Assembly (NCBI GenBank): GCA_020832105.1
Contig: JAFIFH010000074.1
Location: 1-64,000, forward strand
Source: Idiomarina sp.
Lineage (GTDB): Bacteria > Pseudomonadota > Gammaproteobacteria > Enterobacterales > Alteromonadaceae
DNA: 64,000 nt
Reading direction: 5' to 3'
In this document: positions 42,136 through 59,128 of the stretch, piece after piece
Numbering within the stretch: position 1 is the first letter of the stretch
How the letters are laid out: each line of letters opens with the position of its first letter
The notes under the pieces: generated by a model
Seen by the model: only the letters and a program-made list of their open reading frames with translations
Told to the model about the DNA's origin: nothing
The model's database searches: none
Position numbers and translations under genes: made by a program

Positions 42136-42163
42136 TTGATTCAACTTAAGCGAACGGTATAAT
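42136..42163 (+). promoter_or_regulatory. Promoter of tRNA-Leu
   Basis: TTGATT (42136-42141), 16 bases, then TATAAT (42158-42163), a perfect -10. The GC-rich GCGGGTCGC just after it looks like the discriminator of stringently controlled stable-RNA promoters. Confidence 0.85.
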
Positions 42164-42225
42164 GCGGGTCGCTTAGCAGGTTTACCCACTAAGCAGCCTC
42201 CCAAGTTTCAAACATCGAAACAAAT

Positions 42226-42312
42226 GCCCGGGTGGCGAAATTGGTAGACGCAGCGGATTCAAAATCCGCCGCCCTTGCGGGTGTGCCGGTTCGAGTCCGG
42301 CCCCGGGCACCA
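42226..42312 (+). tRNA. leuX: tRNA-Leu (anticodon CAA)
   Basis: An 87-base tRNA with an encoded CCA. The acceptor stem GCCCGGG pairs with CCCGGGC (42302-42308) ahead of the A-CCA end. The anticodon arm is GCGGA-TTCAAAA-TCCGC, giving anticodon CAA (decoding UUG). A long variable arm and the T-arm C-C-G-G-T-T-C-G-A complete a class II tRNA. The D-arm G-G-C-G-A-A-A-T-T-G-G-T-A-G-A-C-G-C is the leucine type, close to E. coli leuX. Confidence 0.96.
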
Positions 42313-42798
42313 TCTATACTTCCATGTAATTCTTTGTAATCAATACAGAAAACAGAAATTTCAACCGAGCCAACGCCGAGCCGAAAAACGCGCTCCGGTA
42401 CATGTCCTGTCTTTTTCTGCCGTTTTTAACCCTATTCAATGGAAACAACAGCAACTCGATGCGGCGCTAACAATGTTAATAAGCCTCCTTGCGCGTGTAT
42501 TCCGACTGGGCACTTACTCACCCAAATGTATCAGATGCGGCTGGTTATGAGCGGCAGTCGTGGGATAAACCTAGCCGAAAATAGCGCTTAATTGGTTAGC
42601 ATTACATAAATCAAATATTAAAATTTAACTTATTTCATTGGCTTAGCTTTTAATCGCCTGAATGTCGTATTTTCAGCTTTTGAAAGTGGATTAATAATTC
42701 ATTCACCGCTAGTTTGCAGTTGGCGGGAACCCCACCATAAGATCTTGATTACGGTGGTGTATTAAGTCTTTTTGAGCTGTTGGCTCTAAGGCAAAACT
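42313..42798. other. 486-base gap after tRNA-Leu without a recognised gene
   Basis: The stretch downstream of the tRNA holds no credible gene. One 91-residue frame begins inside the tRNA and has no family character. The second half is AT-rich, with a weak dyad C-C-A-C-C...G-G-T-G-G around AAGATCTT at about 42730-42760, just upstream of the secreted-protein gene. The 3' end of this tRNA is a known integration site in other bacteria, so a decayed element is possible, but I see no integrase or att repeat. Confidence 0.6.
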
Positions 42799-43734
42799 AT
42801 GAAAACCACGTCTAAGTTAATAACTGGCTTTACCATGTCTGGTATAGCTTTATCCATCCTTCTAAGCTCAAACCCTGCATTTGCAGCTAGCTGCCAGACC
42901 TTGTATGCAGGGCAAAACATTCCTGCGGGCTCTGTATGTGTGAGTAATGACGCTGACTACTTGACAGTAGAATACAAAGTTGACGCGCCCTGGGACCTGA
43001 CTGAGGTGCATCTATTCGTAGGCAATTCGATCACTGAAGCTCCCCAAACTCGCTCGGGTAATCCACAAATAGGTTTATTCCCCTATTCAGCAACAGTTTC
43101 AGGAGGTGCATACTCATTTGTCTTACCCATGGGTGATTTTGGCGATTGTGATGCGGACCTAGTTGTAGCAGCACATGCGGTAGTAGCTAAAGAGGGTTCC
43201 AATGGTAGTTTGCAAACCGAAACCGGGTGGGCCGCTGGCACTCGCTTTACACCAAGGGGGAATTGGGCTACCTGGTTTAATTACAGCGCCGAATGTCCAA
43301 ACTATGTTGGCGAATGTTCACGTACCGAGACTGCGTTTGCGTTTGGGGATCAAACCCTTCAGGACTTAGGGACGGGAATCAATCGTTGGGGTTGGCAGAA
43401 TACAGTGAGCCCTTATGAAAGCGGTAGTCAACCACTATATGCTGGCGCGGCGCAGAATGACCCATCTAAAGGGGATTTAGTAGGCCAAGTATATTACAGT
43501 TTCGACGGTTCGTGGCTTGACCTAACTTATCAAATGGCTGCCGGTTACGGGTTAAGTAAAACCCATGTCTTTGCCGGTGCTGCTAACTTGAATACTGGCG
43601 CACCAGGTCTGTTTGGACATCAGCAGTCGCATAGTTTTGGTACTACTTTTGTCAATTACTATATAGATACAGGTTTGACCGGTACTGAAGATCTGTTTGT
43701 AGTTGCCCATGCTGATGTGTGCTTCCAGCAATAG
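42799..43734 (+). CDS. Secreted protein with a duplicated beta-rich domain
   Basis: A 311-residue exported protein. The signal peptide ends near residue 29 (P-A-F-A). Two copies of one domain follow, at about 35-129 and 213-306; each reads L-Y-A-G ... L-T/L-x-Y ... H-x-F-x-G ... G-L-F ... D-L-x-V-V/A-A-H-A-x-V. Between them lies a linker with T-E-T-A-F-A-F-G. The pattern reminds me of repeat domains common in exported proteins of Bacteroidetes. Cysteines at 32, 47, 117, 166, 173 and 308 could form disulphides. It has its own terminator and no operon partners. The function is unknown. Confidence 0.78.
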   Translation: MKTTSKLITGFTMSGIALSILLSSNPAFAASCQTLYAGQNIPAGSVCVSNDADYLTVEYKVDAPWDLTEVHLFVGNSITEAPQTRSGNPQIGLFPYSATVSGGAYSFVLPMGDFGDCDADLVVAAHAVVAKEGSNGSLQTETGWAAGTRFTPRGNWATWFNYSAECPNYVGECSRTETAFAFGDQTLQDLGTGINRWGWQNTVSPYESGSQPLYAGAAQNDPSKGDLVGQVYYSFDGSWLDLTYQMAAGYGLSKTHVFAGAANLNTGAPGLFGHQQSHSFGTTFVNYYIDTGLTGTEDLFVVAHADVCFQQ

Positions 43735-43760
43735 GCGTCATATGCTGTAAAAATCAGCTA

Positions 43761-43794
43761 AAAAAAGTGCCTGCAGCGCAGGCGCTTTTTTATT
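43761..43794 (+). terminator. Terminator of the duplicated-domain secreted protein gene
   Basis: AGTGCCTGC (43766-43774), loop AGC, GCAGGCGCT (43778-43786) with one wobble pair, in an A-run before and a T-run after. Confidence 0.9.
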
Positions 43795-43830
43795 TTTCTG
43801 CTTATCCTGTGATTACAAGCTGTTACTCTG

Positions 43831-44559
43831 TCAGTCCAGGCGCTTCAGCAAATCGTCGCGGAATTTGCGAATGCGCTCGGCATTGGCGCCGACATCGCTG
43901 CCACCAAGGCGGGATTTGCTGCGCACATCAAGCAAGGTTGTACTGCCTTCCCCTGTGATTCGAATCACCACATCATCTTTAAAACCGAACCAGGTGGTGG
44001 TTGCGGTGGCCTCAATTCGACCATCATTGGCATTCGCCTCAACCAGCTCCCAGCCGCTCGCCTCAACAACGTCCAGGGCACTCGCAAAGACGTCTTGTGG
44101 TGGGTGAGGCAGGCGCATCGTTTCAATGTCAGGGTAGGCCTGGCGTTGCTGTTCAGCGGTCTCTTCGCCTGGGTACTCGACTGGGTTGGGTGAATCGGCT
44201 CGCAGCGGTGCAATAGCTACAAACGCAGGTGGGTTCTGAGTATCGGTGGTGATGTCATGAATGCGGGGTACCGACTGCGCGGTTTGCAGCTGACTGTACG
44301 GCAGGTAAAAGGCGACTAGCCCGGTGACAAAGGAAGCCACTAGCAATGCTTGGGCTGACCGAGCAGAAGGGCGCAGTACAATGCCTGCAATCACCACTAG
44401 GATAATCGCGGCAATACCTACGTAGGCTGCCCAGCGCATGAATAAGAAGGCGGTGCCCAAGGTGAGCAACTCGGTACGGTAAAGCGGACCTGCTATTAAT
44501 AACAGCAGAATGGCTAAAAATCCGGCGCCAGCCGCGGCAAAACATAGAATTTTTTTCAT
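43831..44559 (-). CDS. DUF1499 membrane protein
   Basis: A 242-residue protein with three N-terminal membrane segments (about 7-25, 36-62 and 70-88) followed by a soluble DUF1499 domain. Typical features are the start of the soluble part with D-I-T-T-D and P-P-A-F, the segment A-Y-P-D-I, and the strand F-G-F-K-D-D-V-V-I-R-I with L-D-V-R-S-K-S-R-L-G-G-S-D-V-G-A-N near the C-terminus. The function is unknown. It diverges from the hydroxylase gene (83 bases between). Confidence 0.87.
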   Translation of the reverse strand: MKKILCFAAAGAGFLAILLLLIAGPLYRTELLTLGTAFLFMRWAAYVGIAAIILVVIAGIVLRPSARSAQALLVASFVTGLVAFYLPYSQLQTAQSVPRIHDITTDTQNPPAFVAIAPLRADSPNPVEYPGEETAEQQRQAYPDIETMRLPHPPQDVFASALDVVEASGWELVEANANDGRIEATATTTWFGFKDDVVIRITGEGSTTLLDVRSKSRLGGSDVGANAERIRKFRDDLLKRLD

Positions 44560-44642
44560 GCTAACCTCTGTAATTGTTCTTTTATGGCCTCTCTGTACGT
44601 ATATATGTACTATCTTAGCTCACTTATAAAGATGTATTTTTC

Positions 44643-45497
44643 ATGAGCATGTTACTGGATTATGAAATTTGGCTGCGCCTGATTGTGTTCATAGCGGTGT
44701 TGCTGGCTTTGCTTGGGGCAGAGGTTTACTGGCCTCGGCGAGGTCGCGAGCGCACGCGTGGGCAGCGCTGGGGCAGTAATTTTGGCATTGTCGTGATTGA
44801 CACTCTGCTATTGCGGATTGCGTTCCCCGTGGCGGCAATTGGCACGGCTTTGTGGGCGGAGTCGACTGGGTTTGGCCTGCTCAATATATTGAACGTGCCA
44901 TTATGGCTAAGCGTGGTTGCGTCACTTCTGTTGCTCGACTTTGCGATATGGGCGCAACATCTGATGTTTCACCGGGTGCCCTGGTTGTGGCGCATGCACC
45001 GCTTGCATCACGCGGACGTAGACATGGATGTGACCACCGCACTGCGTTTTCATCCCCTGGAAATTCTGCTCTCGATGCTGATAAAAATCGGTGTCGTGGT
45101 TTTGTTCGGCGCGCCTGCAGTGGCCGTGTTGTTGTTTGAGGTGATTCTGAATGCGACGGCGATGTTCAACCATAGCAATATTCGCCTGCGTGACAAGGCA
45201 GACAAGTGGTTACGCAGGTTCGTGGTAACCCCCGACATGCACCGCGTGCACCACTCATGGCATGTGCACGAGACTGACAGCAACTTTGGCTTTAATCTGC
45301 CCTGGTGGGATCGCCTGTTCGGTACCTACCGTGCGCAACCTGAAGACGGCCACGACAACATGACCATTGGTATCAATCAGTTTCGTCAGGCAGACGACAA
45401 CAAGCTGCACCGCCTCCTATTGCAGCCCTTTGTGGGGCCCACCCATAGCAAACCTACTCAGCGTCGCGGGCATGCACGCGAATCGAGCGATACTTAG
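44643..45497 (+). CDS. Sterol desaturase / fatty acid hydroxylase family protein
   Basis: A membrane di-iron enzyme of about 284 residues. The histidine boxes are all present: HLMFH (106-110), HRLHH (119-123), an H-S-N at 177 and HRVHH (200-204), plus several histidines after them. Membrane segments at about 11-30, 48-70, 88-104 and 145-170 surround them. The bacterial members hydroxylate or desaturate lipids, carotenoids or hopanoids; the substrate here is unknown. Its end overlaps the DUF3047 gene by 44 bases on the other strand. Confidence 0.9.
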   Translation: MSMLLDYEIWLRLIVFIAVLLALLGAEVYWPRRGRERTRGQRWGSNFGIVVIDTLLLRIAFPVAAIGTALWAESTGFGLLNILNVPLWLSVVASLLLLDFAIWAQHLMFHRVPWLWRMHRLHHADVDMDVTTALRFHPLEILLSMLIKIGVVVLFGAPAVAVLLFEVILNATAMFNHSNIRLRDKADKWLRRFVVTPDMHRVHHSWHVHETDSNFGFNLPWWDRLFGTYRAQPEDGHDNMTIGINQFRQADDNKLHRLLLQPFVGPTHSKPTQRRGHARESSDT

Positions 45498-46104
45498 CAC
45501 TCGCCGATGACCTGCTGTTGTCGCAGTCGGTCATGATTGCGATGGCGTTAACTTTGTCCGGGGCTTCGCCATGAAAGCGCTTAAAATCAGCTTCCATATC
45601 GCGGGTTTCGGTTTGCCATTCTCCGTCGGCAGCAGAGCCCTGGCGTACGGCTACCATATGCGCCTGGCTGGCAAAGGGGTTTGGCCAGTCCTCGCCAACC
45701 TCGGTGTGCTGACTCCACACATAGTTCAGAGCGCGGGTTCGCCAACGCAGCACTGAGTGTTCACGCACGACGTAAATGCGCGCAGCAAAGTCGTCACTGT
45801 CTTTGTGTTGCTCGTCGCTGACCTGGGGGAATTCGCTGACTTGCCATTGCCAACTGATCATTGGTGTTTCGCGAAGATCAATATCGCCACGGTAAAATAA
45901 GCCAGACGCCTGCCCATCCTGACACCAGGCGACAATATGCGCCTGTTCATCGGCCTGCTCTTCGATAAGCCTGTATTCGGTATGTCCTTCAAAAGAGTGA
46001 GGGTCCCATTTAATAACCTCTTCAGCTTGCCAGTCGACACTGGCCTGGGTATGGCTCATAACGGCTAAGATTGGCAACATTGACGCCAAGTAAAACTTGT
46101 TCAT
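45454..46104 (-). CDS. DUF3047 exported protein
   Basis: About 216 residues starting at M-N-K-F-Y-L-A-S, with a signal peptide of about 22 residues ending before S-V-D-W. The mature protein has the DUF3047 character: W-Q-W-Q-V, S-D-D-F-A-A-R-I-Y-V-V, L-N-Y-V-W and the C-terminal D-C-D-N-S-R-S-S-A-S-A-K-Y-R-S. The function of DUF3047 is unknown. Its position opposite the TonB receptor cluster (180 bases between) may be by chance. Confidence 0.85.
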   Translation of the reverse strand: MNKFYLASMLPILAVMSHTQASVDWQAEEVIKWDPHSFEGHTEYRLIEEQADEQAHIVAWCQDGQASGLFYRGDIDLRETPMISWQWQVSEFPQVSDEQHKDSDDFAARIYVVREHSVLRWRTRALNYVWSQHTEVGEDWPNPFASQAHMVAVRQGSAADGEWQTETRDMEADFKRFHGEAPDKVNAIAIMTDCDNSRSSASAKYRSIRVHARDAE

Positions 46105-46284
46105 ACTGTCCTCCACAAGCTGTTAATGGGGTAAGGAATACGAGGTTTTTGCTGATAACGCGAGCATAACCCGACACTTCATGCCAATTAAGCTGAATTA
46201 GTTGATGCTTTAGGCGTTTTAATTGATCTTTTTTGTCTTGAACCGAATAGACTTAAGCTATCTATCTGTAGACAAAAGTTAAAT

Positions 46285-48645
46285 ATGACAAATAAACACC
46301 AGCTGCTCATCCCTTTCGCTGCGACTCTTCTGTTTCCATTGGCTGCTGCACATGCAGAGCAAACCGACCCTGATGAAGATAACACCGTAGAAATCATCAC
46401 CATTATTGGCAGTGACGATGCGTCCTTACTGACCCCTCGAGGTGCGCAAACAAGAGGGCTGTTCGGTGACGATAAGCCGATAACCGATGTCGCACGCAGC
46501 ATTACCCCGCTGAGCGAATTCGTGATTCAGGATGCTGCGTTAACGGATTTAAATGACCTCAATAGTGTCGTGCCGAATACCTTTGGTGCCAGTGGTTTCA
46601 ACTCAGCCTCATTACCCACCATTCGCGGTCAACTGGGCGAAGTGTTCAGTAATGGACTGCGTCGTCAGGGCGGTAATAATGGGTTCGGTATCCCGCTGTC
46701 ATTTAACAGCGTGGAACAGCTGGATGTGGCTAAGGGGATGCCCCCGGTGATGCTCGGCACAACTCAGCGTACGGGTGGTTTTATCAATGTACAAAGTAAA
46801 CGCCCTGACCTGCTGCAGCATCGTGGCAGCGTAAACCTGTCCGCAGGCCGCTGGGACGAATACCGGGCGCAGGTTGATGTGAGTACACCGATTGAGGCAG
46901 GGCGTTCGGGCGTGCGGCTAAGTTATCAGCGTCGTAACGAAGGCAGCTTTTATGACTTTAGCCGTTACGAGAGCCACAACCTCTATATTGCCGGGCGCTG
47001 GCTGTTACAAAATGGTGCTGAATTTAATACCAGCCTGGAATATTTCGATGTTGATTTTACCGATAACGCGGGTCTTAACCGGCCTACCCAGAACCTGATT
47101 GACCATGGTCTTTACATTACCGGGCAGGGGCGGCAGAGCAATGGTTCGACGGTTCCGGGGGCGGGTGCCGTCATCAGCCCGACTGGTGAAGTACGTATGC
47201 CACGTAGTCAGGTACAAACCGACCCTGACAATATCAGTACCGCTGAAACCCTGATTTGGCATGCTACCTACGAGCAGCCGTTACGTGACAATCTACGCCT
47301 GGTGAATCGCAGCTACATTGAGTCAATGAGCCGCGACAACATTGCGCAGAACAGCTTTGTCGAAATTATCGACAGCGCGCGCACCGCGGAAAACCGACTT
47401 GAACTACTTTATGATGTAAATTCCCAGCAACGCCTGATAGGCGGCGGCAGCCTGCGTTACAACAGCGTACTCGGTTATAGTCAGTTCACCACAGAGGCTG
47501 ACAACCCCTCTGATCTCACCGGGCCTATCGAAAACCGACGAATCCCGCTAACCGACGCGCAGCGTCAGCGTTTGGTCGAGCTGCGCCCTGGGCTGTATGT
47601 GTCCCCAGGCGGGCAGTACGATATCAACGGTGACGGCACAGGTGACTTTAATCTTTCAGACACCACGGATTCGGTGAGCTGGCAGACAGGCCTTTTTGTG
47701 CAGTACGAGTATGATCTCAACGAGCAATGGCTACTCACCGCTGGTGCGCGCGGCGATTGGTATGACGTTGAAGCCCGTGACCCGCTGCCACCTGAAGGTG
47801 TTACCGCCGCAGAAGATTCAATCAATGAGTTTCTCAAGGCCGGTGAGCTCAGCCTGTTATACCGAGCCACGCCAGACTGGTCACTCTACGCCACGGCGGC
47901 TTATGCTGAGTCAACTTCAAACAGTATGGGCGGCGGTAACGTGTTGGGTGCGGACAACCGTATCAGCCGGCAAAATTTTGCGACCGAAAACACGCTCTAC
48001 GAAGTGGGCGCTAAATGGGCCCCAGCGGACAGTCGCTGGTATGCAGATGCGGCGCTGTTTGATCAGACACGCAGCCTGCGCAACCTGGATGGCAGTAATA
48101 CCGGCATTCACACCCGAGGGGTGGAAGGTCAGTTGTATTTCACTGCAGAGCGTTGGCGGGTAAATGTCGGTGCCAATTATCTGGATGCGCGTTATGACAA
48201 TTCTACCGCCACCCAGGGCACCCGTCAGGTCATCGATGCTTTTGACGATTCGCGGCCGGACATTATTGCAGGGACCGGGGTGGGGTCACCCAACTTTACC
48301 GCGTTTCCTAATTCTACCAGCCGGGTTCAGGGGTTACCCCGCATCAGCGCTAACCTGAGTGCTCGATATCAGATAACTGAGCGCATCAGCATGGGGGCTG
48401 ATACCCTCTATACCGAGCATTACCCACTTGATTACCTGGCAACGGTGATGATCCGCGATCAGTTTTTGCTGAATACTCATGCCAGGCTCATGTTGAACGA
48501 TCAAACTGAAGTGCGCCTGGACGTGCTCAATGCGACAAACGAACGCAATTGGTCGCCGGTATTTGAAGGCGGTTACTTTGGTGCAGAGCTGGTCATGCCA
48601 AGCCCTCCACGGCAATGGCGGGTGTCTGTTCGCCATAACTTTTAA
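46285..48645 (+). CDS. TonB-dependent outer membrane receptor
   Basis: A 786-residue outer-membrane active importer. A signal peptide ends after A-H-A (about residue 24). It is followed by a possible TonB box, V-E-I-I-T-I-I-G, then a plug with S-I-T-P-L-S, L-P-T-I-R-G and N-S-V-E-Q-L-D-V-A-K-G, and a 22-strand barrel ending in W-R-V-S-V-R-H-N-F with the expected final aromatic. The plug resembles the siderophore-receptor group, but no ligand can be assigned. It is the first gene of a tightly spaced cluster with a TVP38-oxidoreductase and a YnjBCDF importer, which suggests uptake of one substrate across both membranes. No clear Fur box was seen upstream. Confidence 0.92.
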   Translation: MTNKHQLLIPFAATLLFPLAAAHAEQTDPDEDNTVEIITIIGSDDASLLTPRGAQTRGLFGDDKPITDVARSITPLSEFVIQDAALTDLNDLNSVVPNTFGASGFNSASLPTIRGQLGEVFSNGLRRQGGNNGFGIPLSFNSVEQLDVAKGMPPVMLGTTQRTGGFINVQSKRPDLLQHRGSVNLSAGRWDEYRAQVDVSTPIEAGRSGVRLSYQRRNEGSFYDFSRYESHNLYIAGRWLLQNGAEFNTSLEYFDVDFTDNAGLNRPTQNLIDHGLYITGQGRQSNGSTVPGAGAVISPTGEVRMPRSQVQTDPDNISTAETLIWHATYEQPLRDNLRLVNRSYIESMSRDNIAQNSFVEIIDSARTAENRLELLYDVNSQQRLIGGGSLRYNSVLGYSQFTTEADNPSDLTGPIENRRIPLTDAQRQRLVELRPGLYVSPGGQYDINGDGTGDFNLSDTTDSVSWQTGLFVQYEYDLNEQWLLTAGARGDWYDVEARDPLPPEGVTAAEDSINEFLKAGELSLLYRATPDWSLYATAAYAESTSNSMGGGNVLGADNRISRQNFATENTLYEVGAKWAPADSRWYADAALFDQTRSLRNLDGSNTGIHTRGVEGQLYFTAERWRVNVGANYLDARYDNSTATQGTRQVIDAFDDSRPDIIAGTGVGSPNFTAFPNSTSRVQGLPRISANLSARYQITERISMGADTLYTEHYPLDYLATVMIRDQFLLNTHARLMLNDQTEVRLDVLNATNERNWSPVFEGGYFGAELVMPSPPRQWRVSVRHNF

Positions 48646-48654
48646 GGACGCAAC

Positions 48655-50814
48655 ATGAGATGGATTAAAATAGCCTTGGTGGCGCTGGTTGTCGGCGCGA
48701 TCGCGGCATTTTTTATGCTTGATCTGCAGCAGTACCTGTCACTGGCAGAGCTTGAGCAACGCCAGCAGCAATTGGCTGAGTTTCGCGATACTTATTTCTT
48801 GCAGACTGCGCTGATAGGGTTTGCGCTGTACGTGCTGGTGACGGCACTGTCACTGCCTGGCGCCGCGGTGATGACCCTGGCGATGGGGGCGATTTTTGGG
48901 TTTGCCTGGGGCCTGCTATTGGTGTCCTTTGCTGCCACCATAGGGGCGACGCTGGCGTTTCTGATGGCGCGTTTTGTGCTGAGAGACTGGGTTGAAGCAC
49001 GTTTTAATAAACGACTTGAACAAGTCAATAAACGCTTTCGTGAAGATGGTGCGTTTTACTTATTGAGCCTGCGCCTGGTGCCGGTATTTCCGTTCTTTCT
49101 GATCAACCTAGTGATGGGCCTGACGCAAATCAAAACCTGGACTTTTTTCTGGGTCAGCCAGGTGGGCATGCTCGCAGGGACTGCAGTCTATGTGAACGCC
49201 GGGACGCAACTGGCTAGCATTGAGAGCACCGGTGATGTCTTTTCCGGTCGCTTAATTCTGTCCTTTACGCTGCTTGGTATTTTTCCATTAATCGCTAAAC
49301 AGGTATTAACGGTCATCAAGCGACGTAAAGCCCTTGCGAAGTGGCAGAAACCCAAGCACTTTGATCGTAACCTGGTTGTGATAGGTGGTGGTTCGGCAGG
49401 GCTTGTCTCGGCATATATTGCGGCCACGGTAAAAGCCAAAGTCACGCTGGTTGAGGCTGACAAAATGGGTGGTGATTGCCTGAATACCGGCTGTGTTCCA
49501 TCCAAAGCATTGATTAATGTCGCACGCCAGGCAAGACAGCGGCGACAGGCTGGCATGGGCTTGCCAGCAGAGCCTACCGAAGTCGATTTCCCCGCCCTGA
49601 TGGCCCATGTGCAAGAGGTGATTAAAACCATTGAGCCGCATGATTCAATCGAGCGCTACGAGAGTCTTGGGGTGAACGTGGTCAAGGGGCGCGCGAAGGT
49701 CATTTCGCCCTGGCAGGTTGAAATTGAAGACGAGCAAGGCGCTACCCAGACCCTGACGACCAGAGCAATCATTGTGGCCACCGGCGGCAAACCCTTGGTA
49801 CCGCCCATTGAAGGGTTACGAGAGCTGCCGTATCTCACCAGCGACAACTTGTGGCAGTTAGAGGCTTTACCCAAGCGTTTGTTGGTGCTCGGTGGAGGTC
49901 CGATTGGTTGCGAGCTGGCACAGGCCTTCAGTGGCATTGGCAGCAAGGTCACACAGCTTGAGATGGGGCCTCGCTTGCTGAGTAAAGAAGACGAAGACGC
50001 AAGCGCCGCGGTACTTGAGCGCTTTCGCGCGGATGGCATTGAGGTGCGTCTGCGCCAACGCGCCGTGCGCTTTGCCGCTCAGGGTGAACACTATGAGGTG
50101 GAGGTCGAGAAACTCGACGAGAATGATGCAGTCGTCGGCCACGAGACTGTTGCATTTGACCAGGTATTGGTTGCGGTAGGGCGGCAGGCAAACTTCACAG
50201 GCTTTGGCCTTGAGGCACTGGGGATTGAGGGTGACAGCGTGCTACCCAGTGACGAATTTATGCAGACCAAAATACCCACGATTTATGCGGCAGGGGATGT
50301 CACCGGGCCATATCAATTTACCCATACGGCCTCGCATCAGGCCTGGTATGCCAGTGTGAATGCGTTGTTTGCTCCCTTTAAACGCTTTAAAGCAGATTAT
50401 CGAGTGATTCCATGGGCCACTTTTACCGACCCGGAGGTGGCGACCGTGGGTTTGAATGAGCAGGCGGCGCAGGCTCAGGACATTGAGTACGAAGTTACCC
50501 GCTATGAACTTGATGATTTGGATCGGGCGATTGCTGACAACAACGCCTATGGCTTTGTCAAAGTGTTAACGGTGCCGGGCAAAGACCGTATTCTTGGGGT
50601 CACCATTGTCGGCCCAAGAGCCGCGGACTTGATTGCTGAATTTGTATTGGCAATGAAACATAAGCTTGGGTTAAATAAAATCCTGGGTACCATCCATATT
50701 TATCCGACCATGAATGAAGCCAATAAATTTGTCGCTGGTGAATGGCGCCGCGCGCACAAGCCAGACGCACTGCTAAAATGGGTAGAGCGTTTTCATCGTC
50801 GACGCCGGGGGTAA
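48655..50814 (+). CDS. TVP38 membrane domain fused to a mercuric-reductase-like flavoprotein
   Basis: One 719-residue protein made of two modules. Residues 1-220 are a TVP38/TMEM64 (DedA-like) domain with several membrane spans and the family core P-G-A-A-V-M-T-L-A-M-G-A-I-F-G and R-L-V-P-V-F-P-F-F-L-I-N. Residues about 238-715 are a pyridine-nucleotide disulphide oxidoreductase: FAD motif G-G-G-S-A-G (245-250), redox pair C275/C280 in G-D-C-L-N-T-G-C-V-P-S-K, NAD(P) motif G-G-G-P-I-G, and the late H-I-Y-P-T-M-N-E. No C-terminal cysteine pair of true MerA is present, so mercury reduction is unlikely. SD GGACG precedes the ATG; it is followed by ynjB after 2 bases. Confidence 0.9.
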   Translation: MRWIKIALVALVVGAIAAFFMLDLQQYLSLAELEQRQQQLAEFRDTYFLQTALIGFALYVLVTALSLPGAAVMTLAMGAIFGFAWGLLLVSFAATIGATLAFLMARFVLRDWVEARFNKRLEQVNKRFREDGAFYLLSLRLVPVFPFFLINLVMGLTQIKTWTFFWVSQVGMLAGTAVYVNAGTQLASIESTGDVFSGRLILSFTLLGIFPLIAKQVLTVIKRRKALAKWQKPKHFDRNLVVIGGGSAGLVSAYIAATVKAKVTLVEADKMGGDCLNTGCVPSKALINVARQARQRRQAGMGLPAEPTEVDFPALMAHVQEVIKTIEPHDSIERYESLGVNVVKGRAKVISPWQVEIEDEQGATQTLTTRAIIVATGGKPLVPPIEGLRELPYLTSDNLWQLEALPKRLLVLGGGPIGCELAQAFSGIGSKVTQLEMGPRLLSKEDEDASAAVLERFRADGIEVRLRQRAVRFAAQGEHYEVEVEKLDENDAVVGHETVAFDQVLVAVGRQANFTGFGLEALGIEGDSVLPSDEFMQTKIPTIYAAGDVTGPYQFTHTASHQAWYASVNALFAPFKRFKADYRVIPWATFTDPEVATVGLNEQAAQAQDIEYEVTRYELDDLDRAIADNNAYGFVKVLTVPGKDRILGVTIVGPRAADLIAEFVLAMKHKLGLNKILGTIHIYPTMNEANKFVAGEWRRAHKPDALLKWVERFHRRRRG

Positions 50815-50816
50815 GG

Positions 50817-51992
50817 TTGAAAAAAGTCAGTTTTCTATGGTTAGGTCTGCTGTTACTCATGTCACAGGTCACTTTTCAGGTGAACGCTCAGGTGAACGCC
50901 CAGCCCGAAGACGAGTGGCAAGCGCACCTTGACGCCGCGCGTGGGCAAACGGTGTATTTTCATGCCTGGGGTGGCTCTGCGGAAGCCAATCGCTACCTGC
51001 GCTGGGCGGCTGGCGAGTTGCGTGAGCACTATGATATTCGTTTGCGCCATGTACGCGTGGCGGATATCAGCGAAGCGGTGACCCGTTTACTGGCGGAATC
51101 GCGCAGTGACGCCTCTGCCAGTGCAGTGGACTTACTGTGGGTGAATGGTAAAAATTTCCATGCGTTAAAAGAGGCTGATGTTCTGCTGGGGGATCTCTCC
51201 ACGCAGGTACCAAACAGTCATTTGCTAGATTCGCAATTGCCGTACACCGTTGATTTCGGTATCCCTACCGATGACTACGAGTTGCCATGGGGCATGGGCC
51301 AGTTTTATCTGATGTACAATCGGGAATCGGCCCCAGAGCTGGAACCTGATGGGTATCTGAGCCCCGCTGCCTTGCTGGATTTCGCGCAGGGGAACCCGGG
51401 TACACTAAGCTATCCGTTGCCACCTGACTTTCATGGCACCACCTTTCTTAAACAGTTATTAATTGCACTGAGTGACAATGACCCACGCCTTGCCGAGCCT
51501 TATCAGGTAGCCACCGGTGAAGCACTGCTCACGCAGCTTTTCGCCTACCTTGATCAGTTACATCCATTACTGTGGCGCGATGGGCGGGCCTTTGTTGGTA
51601 GTGCGGCAGAGCAGCAGCGGTTGTTCGCCGATGGGCGCTTACTGATGGCGATGAGCTTTAACCCCGGCGAACTTGTTTCGGCAAAGGCGCGGGGTAGTTT
51701 AGCGCAAAGCAGTGAGGCGGTGTCGCTAGGCCCTCAGGCGATTACTAACAGCCATTATCTGGCCATTCCGCGACATGCCTCAGCCCCCTCCGCTGCGTTG
51801 GTTACGATGAATTTTTTCCTTTCGCCTAAGGCTCAGCAGCGCAAGGCCGACCCTGAATACTGGGGCGACCCTGCGGTGCTTAAAGCTGAGCATTTGCAGA
51901 CCGCACCAGAGCTTCGATTCGAGTCGGCGAGTGAACCTCATGTCAGCTGGAATGAAGTGATTGAGGCGGCATGGCGGGAGCGCTATGAATAG
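50817..51992 (+). CDS. ynjB: ABC importer substrate-binding protein YnjB
   Basis: The periplasmic solute-binding component of a YnjBCD importer. The start is TTG 50817, two bases after the previous stop and behind GGGGTAAGG; the protein then begins L-K-K-V-S-F-L-W-L-G-L-L-L-L-M (signal peptide). Family-typical segments are V-Y-F-H-A-W-G-G, D-L-L-W-V-N-G-K-N-F, E-L-P-W-G-M-G-Q-F-Y and A-M-S-F-N-P-G-E. Its 391 residues fit E. coli YnjB. A 12-base repeat codes for a doubled Q-V-N-A at the signal cleavage site. The ligand is not known in any organism to my knowledge. Confidence 0.9.
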   Translation: MKKVSFLWLGLLLLMSQVTFQVNAQVNAQPEDEWQAHLDAARGQTVYFHAWGGSAEANRYLRWAAGELREHYDIRLRHVRVADISEAVTRLLAESRSDASASAVDLLWVNGKNFHALKEADVLLGDLSTQVPNSHLLDSQLPYTVDFGIPTDDYELPWGMGQFYLMYNRESAPELEPDGYLSPAALLDFAQGNPGTLSYPLPPDFHGTTFLKQLLIALSDNDPRLAEPYQVATGEALLTQLFAYLDQLHPLLWRDGRAFVGSAAEQQRLFADGRLLMAMSFNPGELVSAKARGSLAQSSEAVSLGPQAITNSHYLAIPRHASAPSAALVTMNFFLSPKAQQRKADPEYWGDPAVLKAEHLQTAPELRFESASEPHVSWNEVIEAAWRERYE

Positions 51993-53601
51993 AGCAGGCT
52001 GGTGGCTGGCAGCGATTCCTGCTGCCGCCATTCTTGGTATTCCGCTACTGATTGCGCCGCTGTATTTATCGATTGAGCTTTTTTCGCTGCCATTGTCCGC
52101 GCTGGTGGAATTCGCCCAGCGCCCAAGCCTGTTGCATTCCATCGGTATCACGTTACTCTTAGCGCTGCTTCCTACTATGGCAGCACTGTATGTTGCGATC
52201 TTCTTTGTCGCCGGGCGACGGCCCCCAACCTGGATAGCGCCGTTATTAGCGATGCCACATGTGGCGTTTGCGGTAGGAATGAGTTTTATACTGGTCAGTG
52301 ATGGCTGGTTGTCGCGTTTGTTACCCATGGTGAATCTGCCCATTGCGGATAAAAGCCTGACCCTCACCTTACTTGTACTGTTTTTTAAAGAGCTGCCGTT
52401 CCTGCTGCTCATGGCTGCCGTGGTGATGCAGCAGCTGCCCACTAGAGCATGGTATCTAAGCGGAGCGTCGCTCGGGTATTCACGCTGGCAAACTTTTACT
52501 CGTGTGGTGTTGCCTGCCGCATTACCTCGCTTGCGTTTGCCATTGATTGCAGTTGCGGTCTATGCGCTGGCGGTGGTTGATGTGGTCAGTGTGGTGGGGC
52601 CGAACCTGCCAGCGCCGCTGGCGCTGCGAGCATTTAACTGGCAGCAACAGTTTGCCGGGCAAAGCCAGGCGTTTGCCATATTGGCGCAGTGGTTGCTGTT
52701 AATGCTGACATTGGCAGCGGTGCTGCTCGTGATCGCCCATGAACGTGCGTTAGTGTGGTGGGCCAGGCGCCTTGCGAGCCAAGGGCCAGGGTTACCAGGT
52801 AAAGCGCGCAAACGGTTGCAGCAGGCCGGTCAAGCTCTGGCTAGCACGTTAACAGTGACTACGGCGGTACTCACTTTATTTGCGTTACTCAGTATGCTGT
52901 TGTGGTCAGTGGCGCAAAGCTGGCCCGGTGATGCCTGGCGACCTCAGCAATTGACGCTGGCGCATTGGCGCTGGGAAGGCGACTATGTGCTCGATGCCAT
53001 ACAGGCGTCATTGGGGCTGGCGTTGGTAAGCGCCAGTGTGGGGTTAGTGCTGAGCGTCTTAGTGTTAGAGTTACAGGTTCGCGTGGGCCGCTACCTGCCA
53101 GTGTGGTTACCCTTATTACCCATATTACTGCCACAATTACCCATGGTCATCGGCTGGCAACTTGGTATCAGCTATTTTAACCTGCCGGTCGGCTGGTTAT
53201 GGGTGGCCTGGTCGCACACCATGTTCTGCTTTGCTTACGCGTATTTGATGTTGAACAGAGATTACCTGGCTTTTGACTCACGCTGGCTGCTGGTGGCGGC
53301 GAGTGTGCAGAAGTCGCCATTGCAAGCTTTTGTCAGCATCAAGCTGCGCATGCTTGCCGGCCCGCTTATCTTCGCCTGGGCGGTGGCCTTTTCGGTGAGT
53401 ATTTTGCAGTATGTCCCCACCGTTTTGCTCGGTGCTGGCCGAGTGGTGACGATCACCATGGAAGCCACGGCCTATGGCAGTGGCTTCGAGCGCAGCCTAG
53501 CGGCGCTATATGCGCTTGGGCAGGTCTCGTTGCCAGCGTTGGTGTTTGTGTTCGCGGTTGTGGTAAACCGAATACTCAAGAAGGAGACAGTGAGGTGCTA
53601 G
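51985..53601 (+). CDS. ynjC: ABC importer double permease YnjC
   Basis: A fused permease with two transmembrane halves (about 538 residues, roughly 12 spans), like E. coli YnjC. Each half has the binding-protein-dependent transport signature: the first around Y-L-S-G-A-S-L-G-Y-S-R-W-Q-T-F and the second around V-A-A-S-V-Q-K-S-P-L-Q-A-F. The start is ATG 51985 behind GGGAG, overlapping the ynjB end by 8 nt. It also overlaps ynjD by 7 nt, so all three subunits should be made together. Confidence 0.92.
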   Translation: MNRAGWWLAAIPAAAILGIPLLIAPLYLSIELFSLPLSALVEFAQRPSLLHSIGITLLLALLPTMAALYVAIFFVAGRRPPTWIAPLLAMPHVAFAVGMSFILVSDGWLSRLLPMVNLPIADKSLTLTLLVLFFKELPFLLLMAAVVMQQLPTRAWYLSGASLGYSRWQTFTRVVLPAALPRLRLPLIAVAVYALAVVDVVSVVGPNLPAPLALRAFNWQQQFAGQSQAFAILAQWLLLMLTLAAVLLVIAHERALVWWARRLASQGPGLPGKARKRLQQAGQALASTLTVTTAVLTLFALLSMLLWSVAQSWPGDAWRPQQLTLAHWRWEGDYVLDAIQASLGLALVSASVGLVLSVLVLELQVRVGRYLPVWLPLLPILLPQLPMVIGWQLGISYFNLPVGWLWVAWSHTMFCFAYAYLMLNRDYLAFDSRWLLVAASVQKSPLQAFVSIKLRMLAGPLIFAWAVAFSVSILQYVPTVLLGAGRVVTITMEATAYGSGFERSLAALYALGQVSLPALVFVFAVVVNRILKKETVRC

Positions 53602-54221
53602 CGTTACATCAGGTCAGAATTTCCCGCCAGGGACAGCTACTCATTGACCTCCCATTGGTAGAGATCGCCGCGGGCGAGGTGCTGACGTTAATGGGGCCAA
53701 GTGGCAGCGGTAAATCAACGTTATTAAACTGGATTGTGGGTGCGCCGCTCAGTGGTTTTGAGTGCGAGGGCGAGGTTATTCTGAATGACACTCTGGTCAA
53801 CGGCCTGGCGGCAGAGCACCGGCATATTGGTTTGCGTTTTCAGGACCCCTGGTTATTCCCGCATATGTCGGTGCTGGAAAACCTGCTATTTGCGCTGCCT
53901 AGGGACAATACAATGAAACGCTCTGCCAGGCAGCAGCATGCGTTGAGCTTTCTGCGGGCGCTACAGCTGGACGACTTATCCATGCGTATGCCAAATTCAT
54001 TGAGTGGCGGGCAGGCCGCGCGAGTGTCCCTGGCGCGCGCACTCATCAATGAGCCGCAAGCGATGCTGCTTGACGAACCTTTTTCTGCGCTGGATATGAC
54101 CACCCGTGAAACAGTGCGGAACTGGACCTTCACTCATCTAAAGGCGCGCAATATCGCGACCATTTTGGTCACTCATGACGCTGCTGACGCCCCGCCAGGT
54201 GGCGACATTATAAGGTTATAA
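53595..54221 (+). CDS. ynjD: ABC importer ATPase YnjD
   Basis: The ATPase of the YnjBCD importer, 208 residues. Walker A is GPSGSGKST (34-42), the signature is L-S-G-G-Q-A-A-R-V-S-L-A-R-A-L, Walker B is A-M-L-L-D-E-P-F-S-A-L-D, and the switch histidine is in L-V-T-H-D-A. It starts at GTG 53595 behind AAGGAGACA, inside the ynjC gene. It ends right after the switch region and lacks a C-terminal regulatory domain. Confidence 0.94.
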   Translation: MLALHQVRISRQGQLLIDLPLVEIAAGEVLTLMGPSGSGKSTLLNWIVGAPLSGFECEGEVILNDTLVNGLAAEHRHIGLRFQDPWLFPHMSVLENLLFALPRDNTMKRSARQQHALSFLRALQLDDLSMRMPNSLSGGQAARVSLARALINEPQAMLLDEPFSALDMTTRETVRNWTFTHLKARNIATILVTHDAADAPPGGDIIRL

Positions 54222-54223
54222 GC

Positions 54224-54829
54224 ATGTTTGATGCCCGTATTCTACCGATCCTGAAAACCCCGTTACGGGCGCTGGCGCGCATCGCCAACCGTGCCGGGTT
54301 TAGCGCAAACCAGGTTACTCTGGCCGGTTTTGTGCTGGGTATCGGGGCTGTGGTCGCTGTGGCTTTCGAATACTACCTGGCTGGGCTGGCTTTACTGCTT
54401 GCTAATCGCTTAGCAGACGGTATCGATGGCGAGCTCGCCCGCTTACGCCAGCCTACCGACGCGGGCGCGTATCTGGATATCGTGCTCGATTTTATTTTTT
54501 ACAGTGCCTTTGTGTTCGCATTTATCCTCGCCGCACCTGAGCAAAATGCTTTGCCTGGTGGTTTGTTGATGCTCTCCTTCATGGGCACCGGTGGCAGCTT
54601 TCTGGCCTTCGCCACGCTGGCGCAGAAACGAGGCATACAAAACCCCGATTACCCGAGCAAGTCCCTGCACTATATGGGCGGTATCACCGAGGGCGGTGAG
54701 ACCATCGCTTTCATGGTGCTGTTCTGCCTGTTTCCGGCGTGGTTTGATGTATTGGCATATATCTTCGCCGGGCTCTGTATCATCACTGCCATGAGCCGTA
54801 TTTATGGCGGCTTCAGGGCGCTCAAATAA
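54224..54829 (+). CDS. ynjF: CDP-alcohol phosphatidyltransferase family protein YnjF
   Basis: An inner-membrane enzyme of the family that swaps CMP for an alcohol on a CDP-linked lipid. The full motif D-G-x2-A-R-x8-G-x3-D-x3-D is visible in D-G-E-L-A-R-L-R-Q-P-T-D-A-G-A-Y-L-D-I-V-L-D. The 201 residues form about six membrane segments. In E. coli ynjF closes the ydjXYZ-ynjABCDEF cluster; here it also follows ynjBCD directly (2 bases). The lipid head group it handles is unknown. Confidence 0.9.
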   Translation: MFDARILPILKTPLRALARIANRAGFSANQVTLAGFVLGIGAVVAVAFEYYLAGLALLLANRLADGIDGELARLRQPTDAGAYLDIVLDFIFYSAFVFAFILAAPEQNALPGGLLMLSFMGTGGSFLAFATLAQKRGIQNPDYPSKSLHYMGGITEGGETIAFMVLFCLFPAWFDVLAYIFAGLCIITAMSRIYGGFRALK

Positions 54830-54979
54830 CAGATATAGCAGGGCGACGCGTCAGCTGCCATGCCATCTGGATTTTTATGCGCTATTGTTTTCCAGCAACA
54901 TGGCCCCAATCGACCCATCTCTAGCGGTTCACTGAGTGCTTTTTTGGACAGTAAGCCTAGCGTTTAACAACCGACCTGG

Positions 54980-55004
54980 ACCCTGTAGTCAATGTCTACA
55001 GGGT
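54980..55004. terminator. Hairpin after the ynjF gene
   Basis: ACCCTGTAG (54980-54988) and CTACAGGGT (54996-55004) form a perfect 9-bp stem with a 7-base loop between ynjF and the convergent EAL gene. Only a short T-run follows, so its strength is uncertain. Confidence 0.55.
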
Positions 55005-55013
55005 TTAAGCTTC

Positions 55014-56765
55014 TCAGGTAACCAGGGTGCTACCCGGTTGGTAACGGCGTGCAAGCGCACAGCACTCATCCGCTGGCACAGGTTTGCTATACCAAAAGCC
55101 CTGAATTTCGTCACAGCCTATATCACGCAGATACGCGCAACTTGGTTCGTTCTCGACCCCTTCCGCCACAACCCGATAACCAAGTTGCTGGGCCATGCTT
55201 ACCATAGCGCTGACGATGGCCTGATTGCGTGTACCACGGTCTAAATCACGCACAAAGGCGCGATCAATTTTTACCACGTGAGCTGGCAAGTCGTGTAAAT
55301 AGGTTAGCGTGTTGTAGCCGGTTCCGAAGTCATCAATGGCAATCGAGACACCTGCATCGCGAAGCGTATTTAACTGCTGCATAGCAAGTTTACTATGGCT
55401 GACGATAGCACTCTCGGTAAGTTCAAGTTCGAGCCAACGGGTGTCAACATCGGCCGCCTGTAACGCGAGCAGAATACGTTTCGCAAAGCCCGGTTCATTA
55501 AGGTTATTACCAGAGATATTCATCGCGACCTGGAGTGGACAGCCCTGGCGATGCCAATACTTGATCTGGTCAATACAGCGGTGTAACACCCAGTCGGTTA
55601 ACCTACGCACAAGCGATGTACTTTCAACCAGAGGGATAAACTCAGCGGGTGAGATAGCGCCCAGCTGCGGGTGCTGCCAACGGAGCAGCGCTTCTACTGA
55701 ATGGCATTTATTGGTACTGAGATTCAAGCGAGGCTGAAAGTGCAGGTATAACTGTTCCTGACTTTCCAGGGCATGGCGAAAATCATGCAAAATACTAAAG
55801 CGACGACGGTGCTCGGCATCCAGCTTTTGGGAATAAAGCACAACGTCTTGACCAGCCTGGCGCGCATCTTCGCTGGCGCTATGGGCGGTGCGGATGATAT
55901 CAGCGCCCACTGCGTCACTTAGCTCAAACGGGGCGATGCCCACAACGGGGGTATGCAAAACAGGTGTCGATTCGTTTAGCACCAATTCATTGACCAGCTG
56001 CCAGAGTGAACGGCCGGTGTTATAAATATCAGCTTCGCTACCAGTGACCAGATATAGATACTGACAGCCGCCAATATAATAAAGGCGCTCGGGATACTGT
56101 AATTGCTGCTTTAGATAGTCCGCCACTTCATGCGCCATCGTGTCGAAGCTTGGCAGTCCAATAACCCGTTGTAGTGAGCGGATTTGATTTTCATCAAACA
56201 GATCAACATGGAAAGCATACCACTGACCCTCACGCTGGTCTCTGCGCATGTCCTCAATGTCTTCACTAAACTGATTCCGGTTCGGCAGTCCGGTGACAGG
56301 GTCAAGCCGGCCAAAGGCATGTTGTAGTTCTATTTGATCCATTACCATTGCGGCCATGTCACGCAATAGAGCACGCTCGTCATCGGTGATTTGGCGTGGC
56401 TCATGCCCTAACACACACATTGAACCTAAGGTATAACCGTCGCGGGTGGTGAGAGGGGCTCCTGCATAAAAGCGCACGCCTGACTCGGCCAGTACACTAT
56501 TCTGGTAGGTGGCTGACTGAAGAAGATCTGGCACGACTAAAAAGTCGGACGTGTCCGCCACTTCACCACAACAGGCTTTAAAGCGCGGTATCTCCCAGTG
56601 GTCTACACCAACCCGCGATTTAAACCATTGGCGGTCGTGGTCGGTGAGCGATACGGCAGCAATGGGTAGATCAAACAACTTGATTGCCATGCGGGTGATA
56701 CGATCAAAACTCTCACTAGGCGGGGTATCGAGCAAATTGAGTTGGCGTAACGTCGACAGACGCAT
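55014..56765 (-). CDS. GAF, degenerate GGDEF and EAL domain c-di-GMP phosphodiesterase
   Basis: A cytoplasmic 583-residue signalling protein. Residues about 15-150 are a GAF sensor (G-A-P-L-T-T-R-D-G-Y-T-L-G-S-M-C-V-L-G). The GGDEF domain (about 155-315) is broken at its active site: G-G-C-Q-Y stands where GGDEF should be (232-236). The EAL domain (about 335-575) keeps the catalytic set: E358 in S-V-E-A-L, N416, E451, the D478/D479 pair in I-D-D-F-G-T-G-Y, K499, E535 and Q555. It should break down c-di-GMP and not make it. It stands alone on the minus strand. Confidence 0.92.
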   Translation of the reverse strand: MRLSTLRQLNLLDTPPSESFDRITRMAIKLFDLPIAAVSLTDHDRQWFKSRVGVDHWEIPRFKACCGEVADTSDFLVVPDLLQSATYQNSVLAESGVRFYAGAPLTTRDGYTLGSMCVLGHEPRQITDDERALLRDMAAMVMDQIELQHAFGRLDPVTGLPNRNQFSEDIEDMRRDQREGQWYAFHVDLFDENQIRSLQRVIGLPSFDTMAHEVADYLKQQLQYPERLYYIGGCQYLYLVTGSEADIYNTGRSLWQLVNELVLNESTPVLHTPVVGIAPFELSDAVGADIIRTAHSASEDARQAGQDVVLYSQKLDAEHRRRFSILHDFRHALESQEQLYLHFQPRLNLSTNKCHSVEALLRWQHPQLGAISPAEFIPLVESTSLVRRLTDWVLHRCIDQIKYWHRQGCPLQVAMNISGNNLNEPGFAKRILLALQAADVDTRWLELELTESAIVSHSKLAMQQLNTLRDAGVSIAIDDFGTGYNTLTYLHDLPAHVVKIDRAFVRDLDRGTRNQAIVSAMVSMAQQLGYRVVAEGVENEPSCAYLRDIGCDEIQGFWYSKPVPADECCALARRYQPGSTLVT

Positions 56766-57026
56766 ACTCTCGTTATTCTATAACATGCAGTACCCTCTAA
56801 AGATCAGTACTTTATTTTACAGTGATAAACATAGCAAAGAATCGAAGGTTTTGGCGGCAACGCTTAAAGTATGATCCTAATCAAAAGAACTTATGCGCGC
56901 GTTTTGTTCGTTTGCAAAGCTTTGCTTGCTACCTTGACCACTCGCTGGCTATTGCTAGGCTAAAGGCTGAAGGAACGTAAATACATCTAGTTGAGTTACG
57001 ATAACCCCCTGAGGAGAGCCGCGACT

Positions 57027-57509
57027 ATGTCCAGCCCTGAGCATAAGCAGAAAATTTGGAAACTGATTAAGGACATTAAGGTAGGCATGTTGGTGACACT
57101 GGACGGTGACACGCCTCGATCACGGCCGATGCACTTAGTGCAGGATGAATACGATGGCACACTGTGGTTTTTCACCCGACGAAGTGCTGAGAAAATATCT
57201 GAAACCCAACAAGACAATGACGTCAGTATCAGCTTTGCTGATCCCAAGCATGGCGTTTACGTGTCTATGACTGGTAAGGGTAGGCTCACTGATAATCGTG
57301 AGCTGATTGAAAAATACTGGAATTCATTTGTTGGTGCATGGTTTCCTGAAGGCAAAGACGATCCTGACGTCGCCTTGCTGGAGATAAAAATTGAATTTGG
57401 CGAACATTGGTTGGCCGACGAGAACAAGCTGTTTCAGTTGTTTGAAATTGCCAGAGCAAATATGAAGGACGACACACCTAATCTTGGTGAGAATGAGAAG
57501 TTCGACTAG
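57027..57509 (+). CDS. PNPOx-like (general stress protein 26) flavin-binding protein
   Basis: A small split-barrel protein of 160 residues similar to pyridoxamine-phosphate oxidase and general stress protein 26. Segments such as V-G-M-L-V-T-L, R-S-R-P-M, L-W-F-F-T-R-R-S-A-E-K, Y-V-S-M-T-G-K-G-R-L and P-E-G-K-D-D-P-D-V-A-L-L are typical. The start is ATG 57027 behind GAGGAG; the longer frame upstream has no support. A stress or flavin-reducing role is inference. It converges on a PAS-GGDEF gene with a long inverted repeat between. Confidence 0.85.
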   Translation: MSSPEHKQKIWKLIKDIKVGMLVTLDGDTPRSRPMHLVQDEYDGTLWFFTRRSAEKISETQQDNDVSISFADPKHGVYVSMTGKGRLTDNRELIEKYWNSFVGAWFPEGKDDPDVALLEIKIEFGEHWLADENKLFQLFEIARANMKDDTPNLGENEKFD

Positions 57510-57520
57510 TGGATTAGGTG

Positions 57521-57561
57521 TCGGAGAAGAAGCTGAAACGAATGTTTAGCTTCTTCTCCGA
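57521..57561. terminator. Long inverted repeat between convergent genes
   Basis: TCGGAGAAGAAGCT (57521-57534) and AGCTTCTTCTCCGA (57548-57561) are perfect complements of 14 bases; inside, AAAC and GTTT add a further four pairs. No T-run follows on either strand. It may be a two-way terminator or a transcript-end stabiliser for the PNPOx and GGDEF genes. Confidence 0.6.
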
Positions 57562-57567
57562 CGGTCT

Positions 57568-58884: not shown

Positions 58885-59091
58885 ATGGCTACCCTCTTTT
58901 TTTTCCTAATTATAACGAATATCAAGGGCCATTTATTACTTAGCATCAATAAACCTGAGTGAAAATCATCCACGCTGCGAGCAATGGGCAGGGCTTTGCG
59001 TAAGGTCATGAGCGCCGCGTACTCAGTTTGAAAGTACTTATGCAAGAACCGTGGGAATGGCTGCAGCAAGAAGAGGGGGTGCAGATGACGC

Positions 59092-59118: not shown

Positions 59119-59128
59119 ACAAAGATCA

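Follow-up and report, generated by a model that had tools for sequence, protein, structure and literature searches.

Comparative evidence for a conserved six-gene unit joining a TonB-dependent receptor to a TVP38-flavoenzyme fusion and YnjBCD-YnjF in Idiomarina

We analysed a 64,000 nucleotide stretch of an Idiomarina sp. genome (contig JAFIFH010000074.1, positions 1 to 64,000; hereafter the window). Six adjacent genes at 46285-54829 encode a TonB-dependent receptor, a TVP38 (VTT) domain fused to a flavoenzyme, the ATP-binding cassette (ABC) importer YnjBCD and the cytidine diphosphate (CDP)-alcohol phosphotransferase YnjF. Comparison across genomes indicates that these genes form one unit that is real, strongly conserved and unusually well so. 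In the reading that we consider most likely, the encoded proteins bring a scarce organic solute through both membranes, and thiol-redox and head-group reactions take place at the inner membrane. The operon is a form, with its own receptor and its own fusion, of a YnjBCD-YnjF kind of system that is itself known but uncharacterised.

Results

The six open reading frames are co-directional, and neighbours overlap or lie at most 9 bases apart. This agrees with the original prediction, made from the sequence of the window alone, which gave the same coordinates and strand and described genes that overlap or sit less than 10 bases apart. The gaps measure 9 bases between receptor and fusion, 2 between fusion and ynjB, -8 between ynjB and ynjC, -7 between ynjC and ynjD, and 2 between ynjD and ynjF. 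Reading of the sequence refined two starts: that of ynjB is most likely TTG 50817, from which the product opens in a signal-peptide-like way, rather than ATG 50742, and that of ynjC is ATG 51985 rather than TTG 51961. The families assigned earlier to the receptor, the fusion, YnjB, YnjD and YnjF were recovered by profile matches, and that of YnjC by alignment. The genes are as follows.

46285..48645, + strand: TonB-dependent receptor, 786 amino acids, of a distinct subfamily (PF07715, PF00593)
48655..50814, + strand: TVP38/VTT domain plus predicted class I pyridine-nucleotide disulfide oxidoreductase, 719 amino acids (PF09335, PF07992, PF02852)
50817..51992, + strand: YnjB, periplasmic solute-binding protein, TTG start (NF008633; AlphaFold2 model)
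51985..53601, + strand: YnjC, double-length ABC permease (alignment with YnjC of other loci)
53595..54221, + strand: YnjD, ABC transporter ATPase (PF00005, ABC_tran, E 5.9e-29)
54224..54829, + strand: YnjF, CDP-alcohol phosphotransferase (PF01066, CDP-OH_P_transf, and catalytic motif)

The receptor is linked to the other genes well beyond the window. Our first sample comprised the best 80 of 140 receptor relatives (the named loci). Because these had been picked by receptor similarity, we drew a second sample from the family, 236 genomes in size; some genomes belong to both samples, and in both, closely related species enter the counts individually. Among the 80 named loci, the fusion lies within 3 kb of the receptor in 75 and directly downstream in 70 (median gap 12 bases), and YnjB and YnjF are encoded near the receptor in 72 and 71. 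The family draw contained the receptor in 63 of 236 genomes, as a single copy each time, and in 61 of these 63 (window included) it stands beside the fusion, YnjBCD and YnjF. When the window is set aside, 62 neighbourhoods remain: the fusion, YnjB, YnjC, YnjD and YnjF are all encoded on the receptor's strand in 60, the exceptions being L260 and L258, while the fusion is present in 61, directly downstream in 57, and a fatty-acid-hydroxylase-family gene in 53. The contig of L260 equals in length that of L118, a genome with YnjB at another place. Genes were labelled by BLAST at E 1e-6 (one alignment at 1e-4) to proteins of the window, a Citrobacter plasmid (L002), a Klebsiella record (L003) and others, and such labels miss diverged YnjC, YnjD or YnjF. 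In a further set of 58 relatives, the receptor occurred in 7, all of them among the 15 with YnjB over its cut-off (one-sided Fisher 2.1e-5, kinship ignored). Thus, the claim of one conserved unit, which depended on the receptor being linked to ynjBCDF elsewhere, finds support in both samples.

The unit nevertheless appears to have two layers, and the single-unit interpretation had to be refined in this respect. Three congeners (G004, G007 and G008) keep a fusion that is 71-73% identical to that of the window, and most like it among the relatives, but their genomes gave no match to the receptor or to YnjB, and ynjBCDF is likewise absent. Receptor and ynjBCDF lie on opposite sides of the fusion in the window, yet both are missing from these genomes. 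There, the hydroxylase gene is directly upstream of the fusion and a DUF1499 gene is divergent, an arrangement that mirrors the DUF1499 and hydroxylase genes upstream of the window receptor. In a tree of the fusion (38 proteins, one gene, FastTree), the window was sister to G008 (support 0.98), and the group of window, G008, G004 and G007 (0.98) was nested inside a receptor-bearing clade. Most simply, receptor and ynjBCDF would have been lost together on two or more occasions while the fusion stayed; a possible alternative is that the line of the window regained them. In three other genomes (L109, L118 and L120), receptor and fusion lie together at another place, and ynjBCDF remains between MsrAB-DUF1499 and the hydroxylase gene, which flank the operon where it is intact (L051, L079 and L121). 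Together, the shared absence and the split loci indicate two modules, one for transport and another, separable from it, that comprises the redox enzyme and the hydroxylase.

The receptor scored above the cut-offs for both the plug domain (PF07715, 25.6 against 23.9 bits) and the barrel (PF00593, 59 against 27 bits), and was 53-64% identical over its whole length to six relatives. Its scores fell far below the curated cut-offs for the siderophore receptors FhuA (25.7 against 803 bits) and FauA (22.5 against 900 bits). The nearest solved structures are siderophore receptors, with the similarity mainly in the plug. On these comparisons, the receptor is a distinct subfamily of predicted TonB-dependent transporters. 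The receptor consensus contains an N-terminal stretch, IEVIxVxG, which resembles a TonB box.

The flavoenzyme half of the fusion is predicted to be a class I pyridine-nucleotide disulfide oxidoreductase with intact catalytic motifs. The VTT domain was recognized at 87.8 bits (PF09335, cut-off 33.9), and the window protein contains CLNTGC at residue 275 (redox CxxxxC) and HIYPTMNE at residue 681 (His-Glu). In the fusion cluster, which includes two short stand-alone relatives, the CxxxxC disulfide motif was found in 94 of 94 members and the C-terminal His-Glu motif in 91. The original prediction of a TVP38 domain fused to a mercuric-reductase-like flavoenzyme was right about the fusion, but by curated score the protein is not a mercuric reductase: it reached 361.2 bits against the cut-off of 454.45 for MerA (TIGR02053), and it lacks the C-terminal cysteine pair of MerA. 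The only cysteines in the window protein are at 275, 280 and 419, and just one of the 94 members has a cysteine within its last 25 residues. The score also fell below the curated cut-off for dihydrolipoamide dehydrogenase. The combination of domains is the one found in the TVP38-disulfide oxidoreductase fusions described for COG0398; passages of PMC10127716 call it the commonest fusion in that TVP38 subfamily and name neither the YnjBCD transporter nor a receptor, both of which are present at the window locus.

YnjB matched NF008633 at 422.3 bits (curated cut-off 203), and its AlphaFold2 model (predicted local distance difference test score, pLDDT, 91.9) has a solute-binding-protein fold. A profile search of solved structures by sequence gave no relative at E 0.001. 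Fold matches ranking high were phosphonate-, hexose-phosphate-, iron-, polyamine- and sugar-binding proteins, with ferric and metal-citrate binders among them. The YnjB residues conserved at more than 93%, including several tryptophans and the acidic residues D105, D146 and E155, are common to receptor-bearing (84) and other (39) loci, and no position specific to either group was found at the 85% level. Because the conserved residues are the same with or without the receptor, the pattern suggests that all these YnjB proteins bind ligands of a single class, perhaps cationic or zwitterionic organic compounds. YnjC matched no Pfam family and TIGR00969 only weakly (25 bits), but aligned with YnjC from other loci (BLAST, E 1e-4). 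YnjF scored 34.8 bits for PF01066 (cut-off 22) and contains the motif DGIDGELAR...G...D...D; the catalytic motif was found in 105 of 106 relatives.

In E. coli, the ABC importer specified by the ynj genes is an orphan, to which the publications found assign no substrate, and hints in the literature are sparse. An FNR site is recorded for the ynj operon (PMC3688515), and overexpression of BaeR slightly raised ynjA (1.6-fold) and ynjB (1.4-fold) (PMC2731931). A ynjC mutation improved fitness under colistin, and the authors of that work cite lower uptake of one of two dyes by a ynjC deletion (PMC9184624). YnjBCD is enriched in Marinobacter of cryopeg brines (PMC9207381). A literature search, which mostly excluded subscription journals, found no publication on the window operon or on the YnjBCD ligand.

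The comparison with E. coli ydjXYZ-ynjABCDEF made in the original prediction was well chosen, as checked on the Klebsiella record. The enterobacterial cluster (ydjX-ydjZ-ynjA-ynjB-ynjC-ynjD-ynjE, and ynjF) resembles the window in combining YnjB, YnjC, YnjD and YnjF with TVP38 proteins and in the conserved YnjB residues. It differs in that it has no receptor, its TVP38 proteins are unfused, ynjF is on the other strand, and YnjA (CMD) and YnjE (sulfurtransferase) are present. A Citrobacter amalonaticus conjugative plasmid and related enterobacterial plasmids carry the fusion, YnjB, YnjC, YnjD and YnjF in the order of the window; the Citrobacter plasmid differs in having no receptor, an extra TIGR03169-like flavoenzyme, and bufferin genes upstream. 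Bufferin-type genes also lie beside the system or a few kilobases from it in two Idiomarina loci (L086 and L119). Siderophore uptake systems, as pairs of a TonB receptor and an ABC importer, likewise encode receptor, binding protein, permease and ATPase together, whereas the window receptor is far below the siderophore cut-offs and its operon adds a flavoenzyme anchored in the membrane and a transferase for head groups.

More distant loci indicate that the core is older than the receptor, because a plasmid of Bacillota and a fusobacterium carry core gene sets. The Metabacillus plasmid (Bacillota, no outer membrane) encodes, in order and all unfused, CMD, TetR, MsrA, MsrB, a small protein, TVP38, a flavoenzyme with both motifs of the window fusion, the binding protein, two permeases, the ATPase and the CDP-alcohol transferase. 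Ilyobacter (Fusobacteriota) encodes rhodaneses, a flavoprotein, a rhodanese-VTT fusion, the binding protein, two permeases, the ATPase and the CDP-alcohol transferase; rhodanese domains are joined to the VTT domain at L208:4059-5606, within the YnjBCD-YnjF locus. Thus, as on the Citrobacter plasmid, a TVP38-redox link occurs outside the window operon and is not peculiar to it. Cetobacterium and Aliiroseovarius pair the transporter with the CDP-alcohol transferase, Deinococcus has an acyltransferase and flavoenzymes beside the transporter, and Roseivivax has Pqi-type genes, the transferase and the transporter. Pseudoalteromonas and Catenovulum replicons carry the full receptor operon, annotated gene by gene with no function assigned. 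A less biased count came from class and phylum draws, from which 6 of 40 loci without a YnjB label were left out. In the remaining 34 broad loci, YnjF occurred in 20, VTT in 9, FAD proteins in 7, DUF547 in 5, the receptor in 5 and the hydroxylase in 4.

Upstream of the receptor, we found a strictly spaced, promoter-like element, TGAAA-N18-GGTC, in 45 of 82 regions (loci L045-L124), related sequences being counted singly, so that these are not 45 independent events. The regions were measured from the automatically assigned 5' end of the receptor reading frame and include both receptors of L049. On the same strand, other spacings from 10 to 27 gave 0 or 1 occurrence each, and shuffles about 0.1. 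On the reverse strand, the element occurred at spacing 17 in 7, at 14 in 4 and at 18 in 3 of the 82 regions, where it perhaps serves the divergent gene. Its form resembles an extracytoplasmic function (ECF) sigma promoter. The element is absent upstream of the window receptor, and scans for sigma-70 promoters and terminators over 45400-55100 gave no more sites than shuffles. Across 10 whole genomes, 17 sites with the element were counted, of which 10 belong to the receptor operon; since 15 turned up in a backward control, the search does not allow other members of a regulon to be assigned. ECF-rse genes near L092 are ordinary sigma-E genes, and Fur control was rejected because a Fur-like pattern occurred in just 3 of the 82 regions.

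Discussion

We propose a model in which the TonB receptor would take a scarce organic solute across the outer membrane, YnjB would bind this solute or something made from it in the periplasm, and YnjCD would carry it into the cell. The flavoenzyme, anchored to the membrane by its TVP38/VTT domain, may then reduce, at the expense of NAD(P)H, a disulfide or sulfane-sulfur bond, either of the solute or of a partner. YnjF may join the product to a CDP-activated lipid as its head group, and the neighbouring hydroxylase may act on lipid. Lipid enzymes do recur by the transporter, as shown by YnjF in the broad loci, the hydroxylase near 66 of the 80 named receptor operons, and the Deinococcus acyltransferase. 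What the comparison gives is the conserved unit, the shared absence of receptor and ynjBCDF, and the intact motifs; every chemical step and the substrate we infer.

Our confidence differs between the parts of this model. We hold it highly probable that the receptor and YnjBCD form one transport line, and we lean somewhat towards the overall architecture, in which uptake across two membranes leads on to processing at the inner one. On a thiol or sulfur redox step we are evenly divided, and that the solute becomes a lipid head group seems to us less likely than not. Several observations weigh against the proposed architecture. Many YnjBCD loci seem to have few partners, and in Sinorhizobium and Peptoclostridium the transporter stands without YnjF, VTT or receptor partners. 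Two Microbulbifer genomes and one metagenome-assembled genome (L056, L066 and L100) carry the receptor but gave no match to YnjB. Among the 58 relatives, the fusion is more widespread than the receptor, and several genomes have no YnjB beside it. Finally, the fold matches of YnjB point to no single ligand. A fully specified version, in which a sulfur-containing or oxidised head-group compound is imported, reduced by the TVP38-anchored reductase and attached to phospholipid by YnjF, strikes us as improbable as a whole; if it were true, E. coli would possess the same assimilation pathway, encoded by its ynj genes and lacking the receptor.

Other explanations account for parts of the evidence. 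The VTT-flavoenzyme might reduce an organosulfur compound, disulfide or thione as a sulfur source or antioxidant, with YnjF and the hydroxylase acting independently on lipids. The disulfide-reductase motifs of the fusion, the rhodaneses and rhodanese-VTT fusion of Ilyobacter, YnjE in Klebsiella, and MsrA and MsrB in Metabacillus would all fit such sulfur scavenging. It is doubtful, however, in view of the lipid enzymes: YnjF is the commonest labelled partner beyond the transporter and the hydroxylase is frequent, and no cysteine was found in the YnjB or receptor of the window. Import of iron or copper bound to a siderophore or to a peptide metallophore would be in keeping with the nearest receptor structures, with the metal-citrate binders among the YnjB fold matches, and with the bufferin genes on the Citrobacter plasmid and in the two Idiomarina loci. 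We consider it unlikely given the distance from the siderophore-receptor cut-offs, the rarity of Fur-like patterns and the lack of an MNIO gene in the genome of the window; it would also leave the lipid enzymes unexplained.

The genes might instead share regulation rather than a substrate, as an operon for envelope stress or lipid repair in which the transporter recovers products of lipid degradation and the flavoenzyme maintains the thiols of the membrane in reduced form. The ECF-like element, the BaeR response and the colistin phenotype of ynjC speak for this. The joint absence of receptor and ynjBCDF, with the fusion kept, is what a shared transport substrate predicts and therefore argues against it, and we give this explanation little credence. 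Thiamine transport, which derives from a YnjC annotation quoted in PMC9184624, seems very remote: no riboswitch, including that for thiamine pyrophosphate, reached the gathering score of Rfam at 40000-60000 of the window or at six related loci, a result that also led us to reject riboswitch-controlled vitamin uptake in general. No thiamine binder appeared in the best 50 rows of either YnjB fold list, which by itself is no proof. The model of a scarce organic solute taken up through receptor and YnjBCD is the one that we prefer.

Three further candidates were rejected. The idea of selenium use came from neighbours of the TIGR03169 (N-terminal-to-SelD-like) type and from selD near the Klebsiella cluster. 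SelD gave no match in the genome of the window (92.8% complete), and was found in 21 of 51 ynjB-bearing and 107 of 347 other genomes, with no significant association (p 0.15). At L133:5677-7087, TIGR04282 and TIGR04283 genes (named arsenosugar glycosyltransferases) lie between YnjBCD and the VTT-flavoenzyme fusion, which raised the idea of ArsS-type arsenosugars. The TIGR04167 radical SAM protein gave no match in the genome of the window; in the phylum sample it was found in 0 of 51 ynjB-bearing and 116 of 347 other genomes, an exclusion that is not interpretable in itself as the two genome sets differ in phylogeny. Bufferin cargo was rejected as MNIO (PF05114) likewise had no match in that genome.

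These findings offer leads on the importer and on TVP38 proteins. In dozens of species, an importer that is an orphan in E. coli is accompanied here by a dedicated receptor in the outer membrane; the ligand can thus be approached independently from a second side, and culturable marine hosts that carry the receptor operon offer a place to find that ligand. In addition, TVP38 proteins are tied to thiol chemistry by two different fusions, with a disulfide reductase here and with a rhodanese in Ilyobacter; the connection gives a starting point for understanding one branch of the DedA superfamily that has no settled function.

Neighbouring genes

Features flanking the operon in the window are listed below.

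44643..45497, + strand: fatty-acid-hydroxylase-family membrane enzyme, accessory, upstream (PF04116, three His boxes)
45454..46116, - strand: DUF3047 gene, divergent neighbour of the receptor (PF11249)
43831..44559, - strand: DUF1499 gene, conserved flank whose membership of the system is doubtful (PF07386)
54980..55004, + strand: hairpin 3' of ynjF, possible terminator (fold z-score -2.21 for 54940-55020)

A terminator scan, whose total was not above shuffles, listed no site at the hairpin. The DUF3047 gene has an identical position in L030 and L045 and lies near YnjBCD in 3 of the 34 broad loci. DUF1499 is also a flank in L173-L175, L182-L184, L051, L079 and L121.

A DUF547 gene lies beside the receptor in 44 of the 62 family loci and 55 of the 80 named loci; its protein sits in the receptor operon of most other genera but is not part of the window operon. 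A model of one such protein (L046:14561-15418, pLDDT 85.5) had no Foldseek match to solved structures at E 0.001 or better and no sequence match, which does not show the predicted fold to be new. A cluster of 60 proteins, including L096:9046-9462, comprises a divergent MauE/DoxX-like small membrane protein encoded upstream of the receptor, with Pfam scores below threshold. A hydantoinase-family gene adjoins ynjF in L155 and L156, and MsrA, MsrB, CMD or YnjE-type genes recur as neighbours of YnjBCD-type loci. Farther downstream in the window, two fasciclin-domain genes stand side by side on the - strand (59129-59806 and 60060-60671).

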